From: Campylobacterales bacterium
GTDB lineage: Bacteria > Campylobacterota > Campylobacteria > Campylobacterales > Sulfurimonadaceae
Length of the DNA stretch: 64,000 nucleotides
Direction of reading: 5' to 3'
Assembly: GCA_026390165.1 (NCBI GenBank)
Contig: JAPLGM010000006.1
Span: 1-64,000, forward strand
In this document: positions 4,492 to 24,470 of the stretch, one piece after another
Position numbering within the stretch: position 1 is the stretch's first letter
Layout of the letters: the number at the start of each line of letters is the position of its first letter
Notes under the pieces: generated by a model
What the model was told of the DNA's origin: nothing
Database searches by the model: none
Seen by the model: only the letters and a program-made list of their open reading frames with translations
Translations under genes and position numbers: made by a program

Positions 4492-4732
4492 GTGAAAACC
4501 ATACGTAGCGATCAATTTAAAGAAGAGTTAAAAGCGGTATTAGCATTCATAGCCAAAGACAAACGAACCGCCTCTAAGAAGTTCTCACGTGCGTTACAGG
4601 TTGCTATTGATAGTTTACTCGATCATCCACAAAGGTTATACCATCCCTTATTTAGTTGATGGGAATAATATCGTGATTTTAGGTATCTTCAATCAAAACG
4701 AATGGAAGCTAAAAAAAGGAAACCAAGAATGA
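4492..4732 (+). pseudogene. RelE/ParE-family toxin gene with internal deletion and frameshift
   Basis: From the GTG at 4492 the frame reads a typical toxin N-terminus (SDQFKEELKAVLAFIAKDKR) for 47 residues, then runs into a short out-of-frame tail ending at TGA 4657-4659. The missing C-terminus is found in another frame from 4634 to 4732: GYTIPYLVDGNNIVILGIF, then NQNEWKLKKGNQE and a stop. These two pieces are the expected first and last parts of one family member. About 20 residues that normally lie between them are absent, so the junction near 4631-4634 looks like a deletion of some 55-60 bases that also shifted the frame. Confidence 0.8.
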
Positions 4733-5523
4733 AACAATTCATAATTTCTCTATTGGCAATACTATTTTTAGAAGGATGTATGTCTCAACCTTCTACCACA
4801 TCTCCTAAAAGTTGTATAAATACAGCGCAACTAAATAGTTACAGTTATGAGTATCTATCGCGCGTAGCAAAGCTATTACGCGAAGATAAAAAAAATCTTG
4901 AATCCTTTGAAGGATTTATTAATGTACTAAAAGGGACAGTGGATAGCTATTCCCAAATGATAAAATCAAGTGTTTATATCAGTAATGTTGTCCGTTATTT
5001 ACCGATTCCTTACGCAGGAGAAGTATCTAATACCACCAAACTTATTTCTAAAACTGTTTTGAATTTGGGAGGTGCTGCTGGAGCCCTTAACCGTTATAAA
5101 AAAAGTTCCGATATTTTTTTAGAAAACTTTGATAAACTGAGTCCAACAAATGCTAAAGCATCAGAGATATCCAAAGTAGCAATCTACGCCGATACTAAAT
5201 TATTAGTTGATGCATATGATCTTCAAATGGCATTGAGAGAGATTTCCTCTTCTACGGCTATGATGGCAGCAACCACTCAAAGTATTTCCGACACCCTCGA
5301 TGCAACTAGTGGATATCTTAATCAAGCAAAAAATTGGGCAGGATTATCCCAGCCTGCTGGGGATGATAATACAAAAGTGTTACAAAACCATAATTCAATG
5401 AATACTCGGGTGGGACAACTGAACCAAAAAATTACTTCTTTGGGAAACAGTGCTGAAAACTATCGTCTTAATATTGAAAAAGCTCGTATTTATTCAGAGT
5501 TGGCTCTACAACTTGAAAACTAA
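4729..5523 (+). CDS. putative lipoprotein, alpha-helical, unknown function
   Basis: 264 residues with a start at the ATG 4729, preceded by AAAGGAAA. The upstream in-frame ATG at 4702 lies inside the toxin remnant and is rejected. The N-terminus MKQFIISLLAILFLEGC is a lipoprotein-type signal with a slightly unusual lipobox (LEGC). The rest is predominantly helical and rich in Ser, Asn, Lys and Leu. It has a short hydrophobic stretch around VLNLGGAAGALNRY and no motif I recognise. The start codon overlaps the stop of the toxin remnant (ATGA), so it may once have been coupled to the toxin-antitoxin operon. It converges on queF with a 5-base gap. Confidence 0.6.
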   Translation: MKQFIISLLAILFLEGCMSQPSTTSPKSCINTAQLNSYSYEYLSRVAKLLREDKKNLESFEGFINVLKGTVDSYSQMIKSSVYISNVVRYLPIPYAGEVSNTTKLISKTVLNLGGAAGALNRYKKSSDIFLENFDKLSPTNAKASEISKVAIYADTKLLVDAYDLQMALREISSSTAMMAATTQSISDTLDATSGYLNQAKNWAGLSQPAGDDNTKVLQNHNSMNTRVGQLNQKITSLGNSAENYRLNIEKARIYSELALQLEN

Positions 5524-17614: not shown

Positions 17615-19974
17615 CTATTATCAAACGCAATGGTCGTCGTGAACCGCTGGACATCAGTAAAATACAAAAATACACATCGGCAGCCGTCAGTGGATTAACA
17701 AATGTATCTCAAAGTGAGTTGGAACTGGATGCCCATATACAGTTCCGTGACGGTATTGCAAGCCATGAGATTCAAAATACCCTTATCAAAACAGCGGTGG
17801 ATAAAATTGATATTGACAGCCCTAACTGGACGTTTGTAGCATCACGTCTCTTCTTATACGATTTGTATCACCGTGTTAATGGTTTTACAGGATATGGAAG
17901 TTTACTCAGTTATTTCGAACGTTGTGAAGCAGAGGGGCGTATTCTCCTAGGGCTAAAAGAGAAGTATGATCTATCCGAATTGGAAAAACATATTGTCCCT
18001 GCACGCGATTTGGAATTCAACTATCTAGGGGTAAAAACACTCTATGACCGTTATCTGATCAAAGACCGTAAAGGGGATCCGATCGAACTTCCTCAACATA
18101 TGTTTATGGCGGTGGCGATGTTTTTGGCTCAAAATGAAGAGGATCGTCAGGGGTGGGCGATTAAGTTTTATGACATGATGTCCAAATTCGAAGTGATGAT
18201 GGCTACCCCTACCCTTTCCAATGCCCGCACAACCCGTCATCAGCTTAGTTCGTGTTACATCGGGAGTTCACCGGATAATATCGAGGGGATTTTTGATGCC
18301 TATAAAGAGATGGCACTCCTTTCGAAATTTGGTGGCGGTATTGGTTGGGATTGGACACAAGTGCGTGCTATGGGTTCGTTCATCGATGGACATAAAAATG
18401 CAGCGGGGGGGACTGTCCCCTTCTTGAAAATCACCAACGATATTGCTATCGCCGTTGATCAGCTAGGTACCCGTAAAGGGGCTATCGCTGTCTACCTCGA
18501 ACCGTGGCATATGGATATTAAAGATTTTCTTGATATTAAGAAAAACTCGGGTGAAGAGCGACGACGTGCACATGATTTATTCCCTGCTTTGTGGATCAAT
18601 GATATGTTTATGAAACGAGTCGTTGAAGATGGTATCTGGACAATGTTCGATCCTTATGATGTCAAAGAATTGACGGAGCTTTATGGTGACGCGTTTGAAA
18701 AACGATATTTAGAATTGGAGCACGACACATCAATTCTCAAAGAACATATCAAAGCAAAAGATTTGTGGAAAAAAATCCTCACGAGTTATTTTGAATCGGG
18801 TAGTCCCTTTTTATGTTTTAAAGACAGTGCTAACCGTGCTAACCCAAATGACCATTACGGAATTATCCGCAGTTCCAATCTTTGTACAGAGATTTTTCAA
18901 AACACACAACCTAACCACTATTTAATCAAAGTGAAATTTGAAGACGGAACGTTTGTCACGTATGAAGAAGATGAATTGGTTATAGTAGATGGTGGTATTG
19001 AAAAACCAGCAAATAAGGTGACAGCACTTGATTCACTGGGTGGACGACCGATTTACATTGTCGAAAAAGAGAAAGTGGATGGGGCAACTGCTGTGTGTAA
19101 TCTTGCGAGTGTCAATCTCTCCCGTATCCATACGAAAGAGGATATTGACCGTATCGTCCCTATTGCTATTCGTGCTCTTGATAATGTGATCGATCTCAAT
19201 TTTTATCCACTTGAAAAAGTAAAACGGACCAATATGCGCAGTCGTGCCATCGGTTTGGGTGTTATGGGTGAAGCACAAATGTTAGCGGAACAAAAAATAC
19301 TGTGGGGAACGCAAGAACACTTTGATAAAATTGATGAAGTGATGGAGTCCGTGAGTTATAACGCTATCAAAGCTTCTTCCGATTTAGCAGTAGAAAAAGG
19401 GGCATACGCTGAGTACAATGGTTCCAAGTGGAGTCGCGGTATTTTGCCAATGGATCATGCCAGCTCTGAGGTACGAAAGCTTGTAGATCGGGGCGGATTA
19501 TTCGCCCCCCAGTATGAATGGGATGTTCTACGCGAAACAATAAAGAAACAAGGGATGCGTAACGGCTATTTAATGGCAATTGCCCCGACAAGTTCGATTT
19601 CCATCCTTACGGGGACAACACAAACAATTGAACCGGTTTATAAACGCAAATGGTTCGAGGAAAATTTATCGGGACTTATTCCTGTAGTGGCTCCCAAACT
19701 CTCACCTGATACGTGGGGATACTATACTCCTGCCTATGATTTGGATCAGACGATCTTGATCAAAGCAGCAGCGATACGACAAAAATGGATCGATCAAGGA
19801 CAAAGTCTCAATATCTTTATCACTCTTGATAAAGCGAGCGGTAAATATCTTAATGACATTTATATGCTTGCATGGAAGCTGGGTCTTAAATCAACCTACT
19901 ACCTCCGTTCTCAATCGCCAGAGCAAAAACAAGATACAGCAGATCGTTCGATGGAGTGTGACGGGTGCCAGTAA
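17608..19974 (+). CDS. nrdA: ribonucleoside-diphosphate reductase alpha subunit (class I)
   Basis: 788 residues. It reduces NDPs to dNDPs using a radical from NrdB. An ATP-cone occupies about residues 1-95 (IIKRNGRREPLDISKIQKY). LSSCYIGSSPDN carries the first redox Cys, NLCTEI the catalytic Cys region, and MAIAPTSSISILTGTTQTIEP the core. The C-terminus ends in the mobile CxxC motif (MECDGCQ). Residues 432-492, between IFQNT and TAVCNLASVNL, form an insert of about 60 residues absent from the E. coli protein but, from memory, also seen in Campylobacter NrdA. nrdB is not adjacent: it lies 5.8 kb away on the other strand, with the ATPase cassette and three other genes in between. Confidence 0.97.
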   Translation: MLTIIKRNGRREPLDISKIQKYTSAAVSGLTNVSQSELELDAHIQFRDGIASHEIQNTLIKTAVDKIDIDSPNWTFVASRLFLYDLYHRVNGFTGYGSLLSYFERCEAEGRILLGLKEKYDLSELEKHIVPARDLEFNYLGVKTLYDRYLIKDRKGDPIELPQHMFMAVAMFLAQNEEDRQGWAIKFYDMMSKFEVMMATPTLSNARTTRHQLSSCYIGSSPDNIEGIFDAYKEMALLSKFGGGIGWDWTQVRAMGSFIDGHKNAAGGTVPFLKITNDIAIAVDQLGTRKGAIAVYLEPWHMDIKDFLDIKKNSGEERRRAHDLFPALWINDMFMKRVVEDGIWTMFDPYDVKELTELYGDAFEKRYLELEHDTSILKEHIKAKDLWKKILTSYFESGSPFLCFKDSANRANPNDHYGIIRSSNLCTEIFQNTQPNHYLIKVKFEDGTFVTYEEDELVIVDGGIEKPANKVTALDSLGGRPIYIVEKEKVDGATAVCNLASVNLSRIHTKEDIDRIVPIAIRALDNVIDLNFYPLEKVKRTNMRSRAIGLGVMGEAQMLAEQKILWGTQEHFDKIDEVMESVSYNAIKASSDLAVEKGAYAEYNGSKWSRGILPMDHASSEVRKLVDRGGLFAPQYEWDVLRETIKKQGMRNGYLMAIAPTSSISILTGTTQTIEPVYKRKWFEENLSGLIPVVAPKLSPDTWGYYTPAYDLDQTILIKAAAIRQKWIDQGQSLNIFITLDKASGKYLNDIYMLAWKLGLKSTYYLRSQSPEQKQDTADRSMECDGCQ

Positions 19975-20336
19975 AGCCCCTGAACGCTTCCTCACTAACG
20001 CCATTGTTAGTGAGGTTAGAGTCCCTTCGTGGAGCGGAAATTCGCTCCATCACACCCCTCTCCCCTACTTCTCTCTCTATTACGTTTAGTGTTCAAGACA
20101 GCGCTCGTGGATATGATTGGATTGATATACGGTTTATTGTTAGTGGTGTTAGGGATGCAAAACTGGTGAGTGATACTATTCTGCGTTCTTTGGATATGTC
20201 TGAGGGGATTACGGTTGAAATAAATATTAACACTTGTGCTTTAGCAATCGGGGAGTATAAAGGGCGTGTAGATGAAGCACCACTTTATATTATTGGTGCT
20301 TCGATGGGAGTTGAAGAGTTGGCGTTTAGTGGGTGA
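19965..20336 (+). CDS. small conserved-looking protein of unknown function, coupled to nrdA
   Basis: 123 residues from a GTG that overlaps the nrdA stop by 10 bases, with GGAG in the nrdA 3' end as ribosome site. The sequence looks like an alpha/beta domain: strands SLSITFSVQDS and WIDIRFIVSGVRDAKL, a helix, then GITVEININTCALAIG. It has no signal peptide or membrane helix. Coupling to nrdA suggests a link with the reductase, but I cannot name the family. The next gene is separated by a promoter and operators, so it ends the purB-nrdA unit. Confidence 0.6.
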   Translation: MPVKPLNASSLTPLLVRLESLRGAEIRSITPLSPTSLSITFSVQDSARGYDWIDIRFIVSGVRDAKLVSDTILRSLDMSEGITVEININTCALAIGEYKGRVDEAPLYIIGASMGVEELAFSG

Positions 20337-20354
20337 GAATATTTGAATATTTTA

Positions 20355-20408
20355 TTGACAATAAATATTTTGTCAGATAATATGACAATAAATATTTTGT
20401 CAAGGAGC
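20355..20408 (+). promoter_or_regulatory. promoter with two identical 20-bp operator palindromes before the ATPase cassette
   Basis: The 20-mer TGACAATAAATATTTTGTCA occurs twice without a mismatch, at 20356-20375 and 20383-20402 (27-base period). Each copy is an inverted repeat with arms TGACAA/TTGTCA. Copy 1 overlaps a perfect -35 TTGACA (20355-20360). A -10-like TAATAT (20378-20383) follows with a 17-base spacer. Copy 2 lies over the transcription start and directly abuts the ribosome site AAGGAG (20403-20408). A dimeric repressor bound here would block both the polymerase and ribosome access. Confidence 0.7.
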
Positions 20409-20413
20409 TTGGA

Positions 20414-21559
20414 ATGCAATTATGTGTTGGACAAGTAGCACGTGCAGAACAGTTTTGGCCGAGAGATACGGAGATAAATCGTATTTGGGATTCAGTGGAA
20501 TCAGGTGGGCACATTTTGATAGCAGCTCCGAGACGTGTTGGAAAAACTTCTGTCATGTACAAAATATACGATGAGCCTCGTGATGGGTATGTTGTCGCAT
20601 TTGTTGATGTCGAATCGGCGGATAATGAGCATGAGTTTTGGCACAAACTCTTCAATACGTTAACCAGTGAAACATTTATCTCTCAAACACATCGTTATAC
20701 AGCAAAATTGGTAACTTCATTACGAGAATTAGCTGGAAAAGTGAAAAAAGTTTCGACATCGGGAATCGAATTCGGTGATGGAGAAACCTTGGATTATGCA
20801 GCTGCATTTGAGAAATTTGTAACGGAATTACAAATAGATAAAAAGCTCATTATTATGGTCGATGAATTTGCTCAAGCAGTAGAAAATATTATCAAATATC
20901 AGAGTAAAGAGAAAGCCGAATCTTTCTTACGAACAGCACGGAGCTTACGGCAAAATCCTAAAATATTGGAAAAAGTAACATTTATATATGCAGGTTCCAT
21001 CGGACTGGAAGGTGTGGTTGCAAGAATCGGTGCAACAAAATCGATTAATGATCTAAATAGTATAAAAATACCTCCTTTGGTATTTGAGGATGCTTTTGTA
21101 TTCACTCGCGCTTTATGTAAAGAGATAGAAGAGGATGATGAAGCTATTACGTATTTGCTAGAAAAAATTGAGTGGCTGATCCCTTTTTATATTCAGCTTA
21201 TTATTCAAGAGACAAATAAAGAGATGCTTACCCGTGAAAGTATAGATCGTGCTATTACAACGGCTTTAGCGCATAAAAATCATTTTGAACACTGGAAAAG
21301 CAAACTCAAAGAGGCATTTGAACCGACAGGCTACAACTTCGCAAAAGAGATTTTGAATGTTATGTCTGACAAACATACGATCAAATCATCAGCGATTACT
21401 AACCTGATTTCAAAACATAATTTAGATCATGATATAGCTAAAGAGATTGTCCATACCCTCGTGTATGATGGCTATATCAATAACAATGACGACCCAAAAA
21501 CATACCGTTTTAATTCCCCGATTTTGCGTATGTGGTGGTATAACAATGTCGCTAACTAA
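20414..21559 (+). CDS. P-loop ATPase of the archaeal-ATPase/STAND-like (MNS) type, cassette A first gene
   Basis: 381-residue cytoplasmic protein. Walker A is APRRVGKTS (residues 38-46), Walker B LIIMVDEF (145-152), and a sensor-like strand TFIYAGSIGLEGVV follows near 200. The C-terminal third is helical and ends in a winged-helix-like segment (DGYINNNDDPKTYRF, then NSPILRMWWYNNV), the usual layout of archaeal-ATPase-type STAND proteins that act as switches or DNA-linked regulators. The ATG follows AAGGAG. The gene overlaps the second ATPase gene by 14 bases. No nuclease or membrane domain is visible, so the function is unknown. Confidence 0.75.
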   Translation: MQLCVGQVARAEQFWPRDTEINRIWDSVESGGHILIAAPRRVGKTSVMYKIYDEPRDGYVVAFVDVESADNEHEFWHKLFNTLTSETFISQTHRYTAKLVTSLRELAGKVKKVSTSGIEFGDGETLDYAAAFEKFVTELQIDKKLIIMVDEFAQAVENIIKYQSKEKAESFLRTARSLRQNPKILEKVTFIYAGSIGLEGVVARIGATKSINDLNSIKIPPLVFEDAFVFTRALCKEIEEDDEAITYLLEKIEWLIPFYIQLIIQETNKEMLTRESIDRAITTALAHKNHFEHWKSKLKEAFEPTGYNFAKEILNVMSDKHTIKSSAITNLISKHNLDHDIAKEIVHTLVYDGYINNNDDPKTYRFNSPILRMWWYNNVAN

Positions 21560-23528
21560 CTATTCACGTTACAAATACACCCCCGATGAGATGGAAGAGA
21601 AAGAGTTCCTATCGCGCTTCGTCGTTCGCACGGACATATTTAATGAAATATTCGAAGATATAAAATCAGCCAACAATACGGTACCGCAACAACACTATAT
21701 CATCATCGGTCAACGTGGGCAGGGAAAAACGACGTTATTGCGAAAGGTGTTGCTTGAGGTGAAAAACTCTCCTGACCTCTCGGAGCGTATTGTACCCGTC
21801 AAATTTTCCGAAGAGCAGTATCAAATCCGTTCCCTTAGCCGACTTTGGGAGGAGGTCGCTGATTATCTCCAAAGCATCTATCCTGAAAGCTTCCCTGACA
21901 TATTGGACAAAATGGAAGTGTATTTCGATGATGAGGATTATGAGCTAAAAAGTTTCTCCCTCTTTGAAAACACCGTTATCCAATCGGAGAAAAAATTACT
22001 GTTGCTGATCGATAATATCGATGAGTTAATCGGCAAACTAAGCATCAAAGAACAACGTAGATTGCGCGAAATATTACTCAGTTCTTCGTCGATTCGTATT
22101 ATCGGCGGCTCCACCGATATGCTCGAACAGCACCATAAATACGATAAACCGTTTTATCAGTTTTTCAAGATCATCAAACTGCGCGGGTTCAATGAATCCG
22201 AAGCGCACACTTTTCTCCGTGCGATTGCCAAAGAGGATCAAAAAGAGCAGATAGAAACGCTTATCCGAACCAATCCCGCACGGATCGAAACGTTGCGACG
22301 GTTGACGGGAGGGGTGCCGCGAACACTTGTTATGCTTTTTGATATTCTGATGGATGATGGGGGAAATGCGTTTGATGATTTGCTCAAAATTCTCGATGAG
22401 GTAACACCGCTTTATAAACACCGAATGGATGATTTGCCTCCGCAATTACAGGAGATTGTCCACACTATCGCGATGAACTGGGACGGGATGCTCACCCGTG
22501 AAGTGGCGAAAAAAACGAAACTAGAGAGTAAGGCGATCTCCGCACAGCTCAAACAGCTCGAAAAATACGAGATCGTCGAATCCGAATCGATAGGTAAAAA
22601 CAAGATTTACAAGATCAAAGAGCGTTTTTTTAACATCTGGTATTTGATGCGCTACGGACGAAAGAAAGACCGGCAGAGGGTCGAGTGGCTCGTGAAGTTT
22701 CTTATGTCATGGTATTCGAAGGAGGAGTTAGAAGAACGGGCTAAGAAGCTTATTGATTCGCTTAAAACAGCAGATGTAAGTCCGAATCATGCGTACCATA
22801 TGGCGGAAGCACTAAGTCATACGGGAATTGATATTGAAATTGAGCATTTTTTGAAGATTGCAGTAAGCCAATTTTTACAAAATAAAAAATCTGTTTTAGC
22901 AAATGAACTAACACCATCTGATGTTATGCTAATAGACAATGCAATTAGATTAACAGAACAAAATCAGTTTGGACAAGCATTAAAAAAATTAGATTTGACA
23001 AAAAGTGATAATAATCAAGTTATACAAAGTTTAAGACGTATTATTTCAGCAGATGAAAAAGCGATGAATTTGATTTTTATCATAAATGAGCAACAAGATA
23101 GTTTAATAAAAGAATATGGGAATATAGGTAAAGATTTTTTAAGTGCATTTGAGGCTTTAGATGAAAAAGGAAGTCCATCTTCTGCACTTTGGATGGCGAT
23201 GATAACGTTAAAATATGATCTATACGAAGAAAGTTATAAAGCAATAATGGAATGGATAAGTTCTGAGGAAGAAAAAAATAGCTCAGAACGATTCACACAA
23301 GAATATTTACTTTTACTACTAGCTAAAGGTCAATACTACCAAGCCAAAAAGTTCTTTGAAATGGAAGAGTACCGATTTAAAGACATCTACAAACCGATTT
23401 GGTATGCGCTAATGATTCTCATGGGAGAGGATGAGGAATACAAAAAGATGGGGAGTGAACTCACCGAGAGTGTGAATGAAGTGTTAACGCGGATTCGGGA
23501 GCTTGAGGAGGAACACGGGAATCTATAA
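21546..23528 (+). CDS. large P-loop ATPase with winged helix and C-terminal helical repeats, cassette A second gene
   Basis: 660 residues from the ATG at 21546, which lies inside the end of the previous gene; an upstream ATG at 21447 in the same frame is shadow sequence. Walker A is GQRGQGKT (55-62), Walker B KKLLLLIDNIDEL (about 147-159), and a sensor-1-like strand IRIIGGSTDML follows. A winged helix (about 305-360, AISAQLKQLEKYEIVE) leads to ERFFNIWYLMRYG, a typical archaeal-ATPase ending. The remaining 280 residues are helical, TPR-like. Bases 22780-23340 are far more AT-rich than both flanks, so the gene is mosaic. The stop overlaps the convergent RNA methyltransferase gene by 6 bases. 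Confidence 0.75.
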   Translation: MSLTNYSRYKYTPDEMEEKEFLSRFVVRTDIFNEIFEDIKSANNTVPQQHYIIIGQRGQGKTTLLRKVLLEVKNSPDLSERIVPVKFSEEQYQIRSLSRLWEEVADYLQSIYPESFPDILDKMEVYFDDEDYELKSFSLFENTVIQSEKKLLLLIDNIDELIGKLSIKEQRRLREILLSSSSIRIIGGSTDMLEQHHKYDKPFYQFFKIIKLRGFNESEAHTFLRAIAKEDQKEQIETLIRTNPARIETLRRLTGGVPRTLVMLFDILMDDGGNAFDDLLKILDEVTPLYKHRMDDLPPQLQEIVHTIAMNWDGMLTREVAKKTKLESKAISAQLKQLEKYEIVESESIGKNKIYKIKERFFNIWYLMRYGRKKDRQRVEWLVKFLMSWYSKEELEERAKKLIDSLKTADVSPNHAYHMAEALSHTGIDIEIEHFLKIAVSQFLQNKKSVLANELTPSDVMLIDNAIRLTEQNQFGQALKKLDLTKSDNNQVIQSLRRIISADEKAMNLIFIINEQQDSLIKEYGNIGKDFLSAFEALDEKGSPSSALWMAMITLKYDLYEESYKAIMEWISSEEEKNSSERFTQEYLLLLLAKGQYYQAKKFFEMEEYRFKDIYKPIWYALMILMGEDEEYKKMGSELTESVNEVLTRIRELEEEHGNL

Positions 23529-24470
23529 TTTCTCCAACAAACAAATAAAAAACCCATCAATCGTATCGGTGGGCAAAATCCGCACGGCGTTTTGAATCCG
23601 CTCGTCAAATACCTCTTTTCCCCAACGCATCAGAGGCTTTTGAATGTTATCGAATGGCAATGTGAGGGGCAAGGTCTTTAAACGTCCTCCATGGCGTTCT
23701 AAGAGGTGCTGAAGGGGGCTTTCGTTCTCTTCTGGGGAAAAGGAGCAGGTACTGTAGAGCAATTTTCCCCCTGGTTTGAGAGCATCGAATGCGGAGAGGA
23801 GGAGTCTTCGTTGAAGCTTGGAGGTCTCTTTGACTTTGTGGATAGACCAAAAAGACATACTTTTAGGTTCATGGGTTTTAAAGCGTGCTTCAGAGGAACA
23901 TGGGGCATCAAGGAGGATACGGTCAAACATCTCGGGACATTTTTTCCCCACGCTCCGCCCGTCGGTCATATAGGTATGGGCGTTGGTCACCCCTTGGGAT
24001 TTTAGGTTGTCACACATGCGAAAAAAACGTTCTCGTGAGAGTTCTACCGCAGAGAGCCACCCTGTGTTTTCCATCATCCCTGCTAACATCAGTGTTTTAC
24101 CCCCTGGGGCGGCGGCGAGGTCGAGGACGGTCTCTTCTGGCTTGGGAGCTAATAAAATAGGGGCAATCATCGAGGAGAGATTTTGAATATAGAGTTTCCC
24201 ACTGTAAAACAGATCGGTTTTGGTAAGGGCGAGTTTGTCTTTGGGGGAGATACGGTAGACCCCTTCTAGAAAGGTTGTTTGCCACCCTACTTTCTCAAAC
24301 GGTATATTTGCTTTTTCTAATTCTGCTTCGAGTTCTTGAGGGGTCGATTTGAGGGTGTTGACTCGAAAGGTGACCTGCTTAGGGGTATCAAATGTTTTGA
24401 GTATCGATGCAAACTGCTGTGAGGGGACAATTTTTTCTAATCGTTCTTTAAACGCTTCGGGGAGGCTCAT
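23523..24470 (-). CDS. RsmB/RsmF-family RNA (cytosine-5-)-methyltransferase
   Basis: 315 residues, NOL1/NOP2/Sun family, SAM-dependent m5C formation in rRNA or tRNA. SAM binding is by DLAAAPGGKTLMLAGMM. The two catalytic cysteines lie in LLDAPCSSEARF (base-releasing) and YSTCSFSPEENE (attacking). It is shorter than RsmB because the N-terminal NusB-like domain is missing. The ATG overlaps the pcm stop by 4 bases. It is the last gene of the nrdB-nitrilase-pcm unit. Confidence 0.88.
   Translation of the reverse strand: MSLPEAFKERLEKIVPSQQFASILKTFDTPKQVTFRVNTLKSTPQELEAELEKANIPFEKVGWQTTFLEGVYRISPKDKLALTKTDLFYSGKLYIQNLSSMIAPILLAPKPEETVLDLAAAPGGKTLMLAGMMENTGWLSAVELSRERFFRMCDNLKSQGVTNAHTYMTDGRSVGKKCPEMFDRILLDAPCSSEARFKTHEPKSMSFWSIHKVKETSKLQRRLLLSAFDALKPGGKLLYSTCSFSPEENESPLQHLLERHGGRLKTLPLTLPFDNIQKPLMRWGKEVFDERIQNAVRILPTDTIDGFFICLLEKL

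Follow-up and report, generated by a model that had tools for sequence, protein, structure and literature searches.

A mobile pair of STAND-type ATPase genes that probably represses itself through tandem palindromic operators

Introduction

Type II toxin-antitoxin operons and ParA-type operons are autoregulated by their own products, which bind palindromic operators lying over the promoter. Bacterial STAND/NLR-like proteins are known immune receptors, and defence operons are held down by separate repressors. An Orc1-fold ATPase that binds its own promoter has been described in Orc1-2 of Saccharolobus, a transcription regulator that is not a replication initiator; it binds by means of its winged helix, with a strength that depends on nucleotide state (PMC9738581).

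The module described here consists of two ATPase genes, termed ORF1 and ORF2, and lies in a window of 64,000 nucleotides from a Campylobacterales bacterium (contig JAPLGM010000006.1). Like Orc1-2 (PMC9738581), it combines an AAA-type ATPase carrying a winged helix with a motif in its own promoter, binding being predicted in the case of the module. Orc1-2 differs in that its motif is a non-symmetric hexamer, its regulon is a global one for DNA damage, and it is a single gene without a TPR sensor, whereas the module has palindromic tandem operators that are private to one two-gene cassette. With type II toxin-antitoxin and ParA-type operons the module shares the format of a short mobile two-gene unit with palindromes over the promoter; its products, however, are both STAND/AAA ATPases, with no match to ParA and none to a toxin or antitoxin family in Pfam or NCBIfam. 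BrxR, CapW and RptR hold defence-type operons low, as is predicted for the module, but are encoded by separate repressor genes, of which the module carries none.

ORF2 resembles Avs/AVAST proteins (8dgc, Avs3; 9jap, EfAvs5) and Apaf-1/NLRs in having an ATPase core, a winged helix and a superhelical C-terminal region with a variable sensor. The module is distinguished from these by two ATPases instead of one, by an operator array of its own and by the lack of a recognisable effector domain (none in Pfam, and no PADLOC Avs model matched). No other PADLOC defence system was assigned either, the best E-values being about 1e-4 (weak mad8 match, E 2e-4), and neither protein is named by PADLOC or NCBIfam. 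The archaeal PF01637 proteins SSO1545 (2fna) and PABY2304 (2qen) are the best matches of ORF1 in both fold and sequence, but with 14-16% identity in the fold alignment and with no partner ATPase or operator in that evidence. A search of the open-access literature yielded no description of this ATPase pair. Its proposed repressor logic is of a known kind, but in the literature searched there appears to be no description of such logic in a mobile pair of STAND-type ATPases with a hypervariable sensor.

Results and discussion

Twin palindromes cover the promoter of the module

The 20-mer TGACAATAAATATTTTGTCA is present twice on the forward strand upstream of ORF1 (20356-20375 and 20383-20402), with 0 mismatches and a period of 27 bp, both as the original prediction had it. 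Shuffled windows contained 0 copies, even when 3 mismatches were allowed. The copies are palindromic as claimed (TGACAA-N8-TTGTCA, with perfect 6-bp arms), but not perfectly so, as 8/10 pairs are complementary.

From the sequence, a good promoter TTGACA-17-TAATAT with a spacer of 17 bp is predicted at 20355-20383 (Table 1). The -35 box and the greater part of the spacer lie within the first copy. The second starts on the final base of the -10 box, spans the expected start site near 20390 and reaches into the AAGGAG motif that precedes the ORF1 start codon; the placement of the two copies around the promoter was thus correctly described. In relatives the conserved unit is the slightly longer 22-mer TTGACAA-N8-TTGTCAA, the window equivalents of which are listed as operators 2 and 3. 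A third palindrome further upstream is frequent in relatives; the window is without this operator 1 (score 0.29).

Table 1. Features of the two-ATPase module in the window.
Feature	Coordinates	Strand	Basis and remarks
Whole module	20337..23528	+	Clean insertion between 123-aa gene (19965-20336) and convergent methyltransferase gene (23523-24470); left edge approximate; empty sites in L072, L073
Operator 2 (TTGACAATAAATATTTTGTCAG)	20355..20376	+	Over -35 box and most of spacer; exact repeat, 0 by chance; position kept in relatives
-35 box TTGACA	20355..20360	+	Within operator 2; TTGAC retained in operator 2 of most relatives
-10 box TAATAT	20378..20383	+	Spacer between operators; TATAAT-like boxes at same place in relatives
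Operator 3 (ATGACAATAAATATTTTGTCAA)	20382..20403	+	End of -10 box to ribosome-binding site; 27 bp from operator 2; exact repeat, 0 by chance; position kept in relatives
Ribosome-binding site AAGGAG	20402..20407	+	Sequence
ORF1, ATPase_2 (PF01637), 381 aa	20414..21559	+	Pfam, above cut-off; acidic variable C-terminal winged helix 304-368; model pLDDT 90.6
ORF2, STAND/NACHT-like ATPase, 660 aa	21546..23528	+	Pfam, model, fold; winged helix ~297-359; TPR/Sel1 ~401-590; conserved C-terminus 601-650

The operator array is retained across phyla

Two or three palindromes were found in nearly every ORF1 upstream region. The 35 regions examined, from at least six phyla, contained 80 sites, i.e., 2.29 per region as compared to 0.014 in shuffles; the rule for calling sites was drawn up with these sequences in view, and several loci nearly duplicate others, so that the size of this excess counts rather than the exact number. 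The spacing between sites was exactly 27 bp in 37 of 45 cases. When pairs were scored for the fixed motif at a spacing of 27 bp, 31 of 34 regions surpassed all 200 shuffles.

The half-site drifts among lineages while palindromy and layout are retained. Campylobacterota have TTGACAA/TTGTCAA, and Desulfobacteria with their kin have TTGACAAT/ATTGTCAA. The form TTGACTAT/ATAGTTAA is shared by Bacteroidota and Moraxella plasmids, although the ORF1 of the latter has an identity of only 28%. The second spacing widens to 33-34 bp in Bacteroidota, around a -7 box of the TAnnTTTG type, which suggests that the array adapts to the promoter type of the host. Deviating spacings were also seen at L056 and L037.

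The operator is private to the module

In the 2.64-Mb Sulfuricurvum-like genome that contains the window, the only copies of the 20-mer were the two described above, with up to 3 mismatches allowed. This genome-wide search had been named beforehand as a check, and its outcome points to autoregulation; it also excludes a dispersed repeat unrelated to promoters, which would have spoken against the original prediction. The looser pattern TGACAA-N8-TTGTCA was likewise confined to the window site. Among 151 genomes of the family, ORF1 is present in seven. The full promoter-operator pattern was found with 0 mismatches in six, every one of them a module carrier, and the seventh carrier (G138) retains a single operator. 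In this search of 151, carrier genomes showed the full pattern at no further promoter. Elsewhere in 15 carrier genomes, half-site patterns occurred at the level of a reversed-pattern control, i.e., at the level of chance. A site belonging to the regulon of a global regulator was rejected on these grounds, namely the absence of copies at other promoters and the chance-level sites in other carriers. The distribution of the operator supports private autoregulation as opposed to a regulon or a dispersed repeat.

The module is a mobile cassette of two genes

In the window the module is an insertion of about 3.2 kb that comprises the operators, ORF1 and ORF2 only and sits where the stop codons of two convergent genes overlap. 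In two relatives from the genus (L072 and L073) this site is empty, with the 123-aa gene followed directly by the methyltransferase gene. The 123-aa gene, which has no Pfam match, overlaps the end of a ribonucleotide reductase gene and was present in 41 of 41 genus genomes searched. In the sister genome G106 the module is located at another place and has three operators.

Homologues of ORF1 are rare (5 of 377 genomes of the class; 25 loci in named genomes) and always paired with ORF2, which was found in the same five genomes. They are spread over Campylobacterota, Pseudomonadota, Thermodesulfobacteriota, Calditrichota, Fidelibacterota (Neomarinimicrobiota) and Bacteroidota, and in the tree the gammaproteobacterial members are nested among Campylobacterota. 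Judging from these comparisons, the module moves horizontally and its operators travel along. No relatives were found in phages and viral contigs, a plasmid search gave only distant matches, and most copies found are chromosomal.

Some copies lie near defence genes. One Moraxella copy adjoins qatC/qatD, and L018 adjoins a type I-B retron pair; CARF-nuclease and WYL genes are found no more than about 4.5 kb from L020, and the neighbour of L038 encodes a KAP-like ATPase that weakly resembles QatA. Most loci, including that of the window, are situated among housekeeping genes.

Two ATPases with dissimilar winged helices

ORF1 scored 36.9 bits against PF01637 (cut-off 33.2) and has kept both Walker motifs, with an invariant PRRVGKTS and a conserved IIMxDEF. 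Its AlphaFold model has a confident winged-helix fold and is also similar to Orc1/Cdc6. In nearly all members the winged helix of ORF1 carries a net acidic charge, helix 3 being one of its most variable parts.

ORF2, the start of which overlaps the end of ORF1, reached 38.1 bits against NACHT (cut-off 26.7) and is composed of a NACHT/STAND ATPase, a winged helix and TPR/Sel1 repeats, in this order (AlphaFold model, mean pLDDT 77.3). The nearest fold to its N-terminal part is archaeal Orc1 on DNA, with Apaf-1, a plant NLR and Avs also ranking high; these matches, like those of ORF1, are matches by fold, at identities of about 8-16%. The recognition helix, SKAISAQL in the window, follows SKx(V/I)S(A/S)QL and is near-invariant across phyla, with column entropies of 0 to 0.54 at S328, K329, I331, S332, A333, Q334 and L335. 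The winged helix carries a net positive or neutral charge in every member examined and weakly resembles ArsR/SmtB (NCBIfam, 23.5 bits, below cut-off). Outlier helices were found in G586 (TTVNKVSAQL) and in Segatella (NSDITSQI), both with different upstream repeats. A residue-to-half-site code, in which NH in the ORF2 wing would go with CTAT sites, was tried and fails, as L037 has NH together with CAAT sites.

Closely related ORF2 proteins are mostly 94-100% identical over residues 1-400 and mostly 84-96% over residues 601-650. Between these parts, at residues ~401-600 (window 22746-23345), identity falls to 12-46% in many 50-residue blocks, and does so in several independent pairs. These pairs are window/L017, L011/L013 and L018/L020; L034/L035 has 38-62% identity in the middle part, and L026/L027 is milder (70-80%). 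Taken together, close pairs are about 97% identical ahead of the region and about 95% beyond it, but often 20-45% and mostly 20-60% inside it. Profile searches place TPR/Sel1 repeats in this region. No hypervariable region was seen in ORF1 of the window/L017 pair. A constant core with changing repeats, as ORF2 appears to have, is what recognition proteins show; either cassette exchange or fast divergence would account for the variability.

Self-repression by ORF2 as the favoured explanation

The view that the unit is repressed and autoregulated is supported by an operator that is private to its promoter and travels between phyla inside the two-gene cassette, and regulation by a module protein is considered very probable. 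No separate repressor gene is adjacent, as had been noted. The operator moves across phyla in a cassette that holds the two ATPase genes only, and a distant host-encoded regulator is thus very unlikely. Of the two binders originally proposed, the ATPases themselves or a distant regulator, the former are left. The conservation of the array across phyla, the frequent third operator and the hypervariable region of ORF2 go beyond the original prediction. If a module protein is the regulator, ORF2 is likely to be the one that binds: its non-acidic winged helix with a near-invariant recognition helix makes it a better candidate than ORF1 with its mostly acidic, variable winged helix. The outliers in which both the ORF2 helix and the upstream repeats are altered agree with ORF2 as the binder, in two cases. 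Against this, many winged helices of STAND proteins have no DNA-binding activity.

The converse assignment, in which the C-terminal winged helix of ORF1 is the operator-binding repressor and ORF2 a co-repressor or inducer sensor, is rather unlikely. ORF1 is encoded by the first gene, its winged helix is confidently modelled and its fold is Orc1/Cdc6-like, and presence alone cannot separate two proteins that always occur together; yet the winged helix of ORF1 is mostly acidic, poor conservation of its helix 3 is at odds with a conserved operator, and ORF2 shows the opposite pattern. Binding of the operators by a host regulator from a distant gene, for which the missing dedicated small repressor gene and the precedent of BrxR, CapW and RptR could be cited, is much less probable, given that the same array with its 27-bp spacing accompanies the module in six phyla or more. 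Further, no other promoter in carriers has the full pattern, so that a host regulon is not available for the module to use.

Direct repeats in front of a gene for an Orc1-fold ATPase also look like an iteron or ORB layout, in which the ATPases would be initiators of a replicating element. This is highly improbable, as the sites coincide exactly with promoter elements and, in Bacteroidota, are respaced around a different -7 box; in addition, most copies found are chromosomal, the one in the window being a 3.2-kb insertion with nothing else, phages and viral contigs gave no matches, plasmids gave few and distant ones, and no Rep family was found in Pfam. A leader hairpin or attenuator formed by the palindromes in RNA is still less credible. 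The strand across both copies does fold well (z = -3.3), but the expected start lies inside operator 3, neither palindrome would be transcribed whole, and in every lineage the expected start is preceded by operators 1 and 2; the reading was rejected as RNA from the expected start folds unremarkably (z = 0.15). A reading of the palindromes as mobile-element ends or as a dispersed repeat is hardly conceivable, for although operator 2 is about 18 bp from the left insertion edge, a counterpart is missing from the right edge and from the rest of the genome, and the tie to promoter elements is strict across lineages.

A two-ATPase module that represses itself through its palindromes is, with good probability, the best explanation as a whole. 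In the proposed mechanism, the winged helix of ORF2 would bind the 22-bp palindromes 27 bp apart, two in the window and three in relatives, perhaps as one dimer per palindrome and possibly together with ORF1. Occupation of operator 2 over the -35 box and of operator 3 over the start site up to the ribosome-binding site would block RNA polymerase and hold the module at a low, self-set level. A change in nucleotide state or sensing of a ligand by the TPR region of ORF2 would release the operators, and induction could follow upon a sensed threat, e.g., a phage protein.

The hypervariable TPR region of ORF2 together with some defence-gene neighbours suggests an immune or conflict sensor, and a role of the module in conflict or defence is moderately favoured. 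Tentatively, the module might be an NLR-like immune system in which a STAND receptor doubles as repressor of its own operon, with sensing of an invader by the TPR region both activating the partner ATPase and lifting repression, so that a single molecular switch would serve detection and induction alike. Part of the same speculative reading is that exchange of TPR cassettes or diversifying selection renews specificity while core and operators remain fixed. If this were true, a receptor that is its own operator-bound repressor and is retained across phyla along with a hypervariable sensor would tie sensing directly to expression, and the module would be a simple system for studying how cells restrain the level of such dangerous proteins. 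As a genomic signature, the conserved array of operators can also be used to find further modules.

Aberrant upstream regions and a look-alike promoter

In Sulfurimonas OB8 (G138; L019, 3738-3757) one intact operator precedes two intact genes and no clear -10 box is present; this promoter is possibly damaged or differently driven. A distant relative (G586; L065, around 4600-4740) has another upstream array, with GTTTTAAAC-like palindromes every 16 bp. In G544 of the Pseudoalteromonas family (L069, 3034-4101; also L053) ORF1 is broken by an interrupted N-terminus and an internal stop while ORF2 is open, and no operator array is found directly upstream of the broken gene.

One-mismatch matches to the module pattern in two Sulfuricurvum genomes, G112 (L043, 1440-1560) and G051 (L044), turned out to lie outside any module, in the promoter of a toxin-antitoxin pair that is YefM/YoeB-like by sequence resemblance. 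This promoter contains repeated TGACAACAT-TTGACAAAAT blocks and is probably a case of convergent autoregulation.
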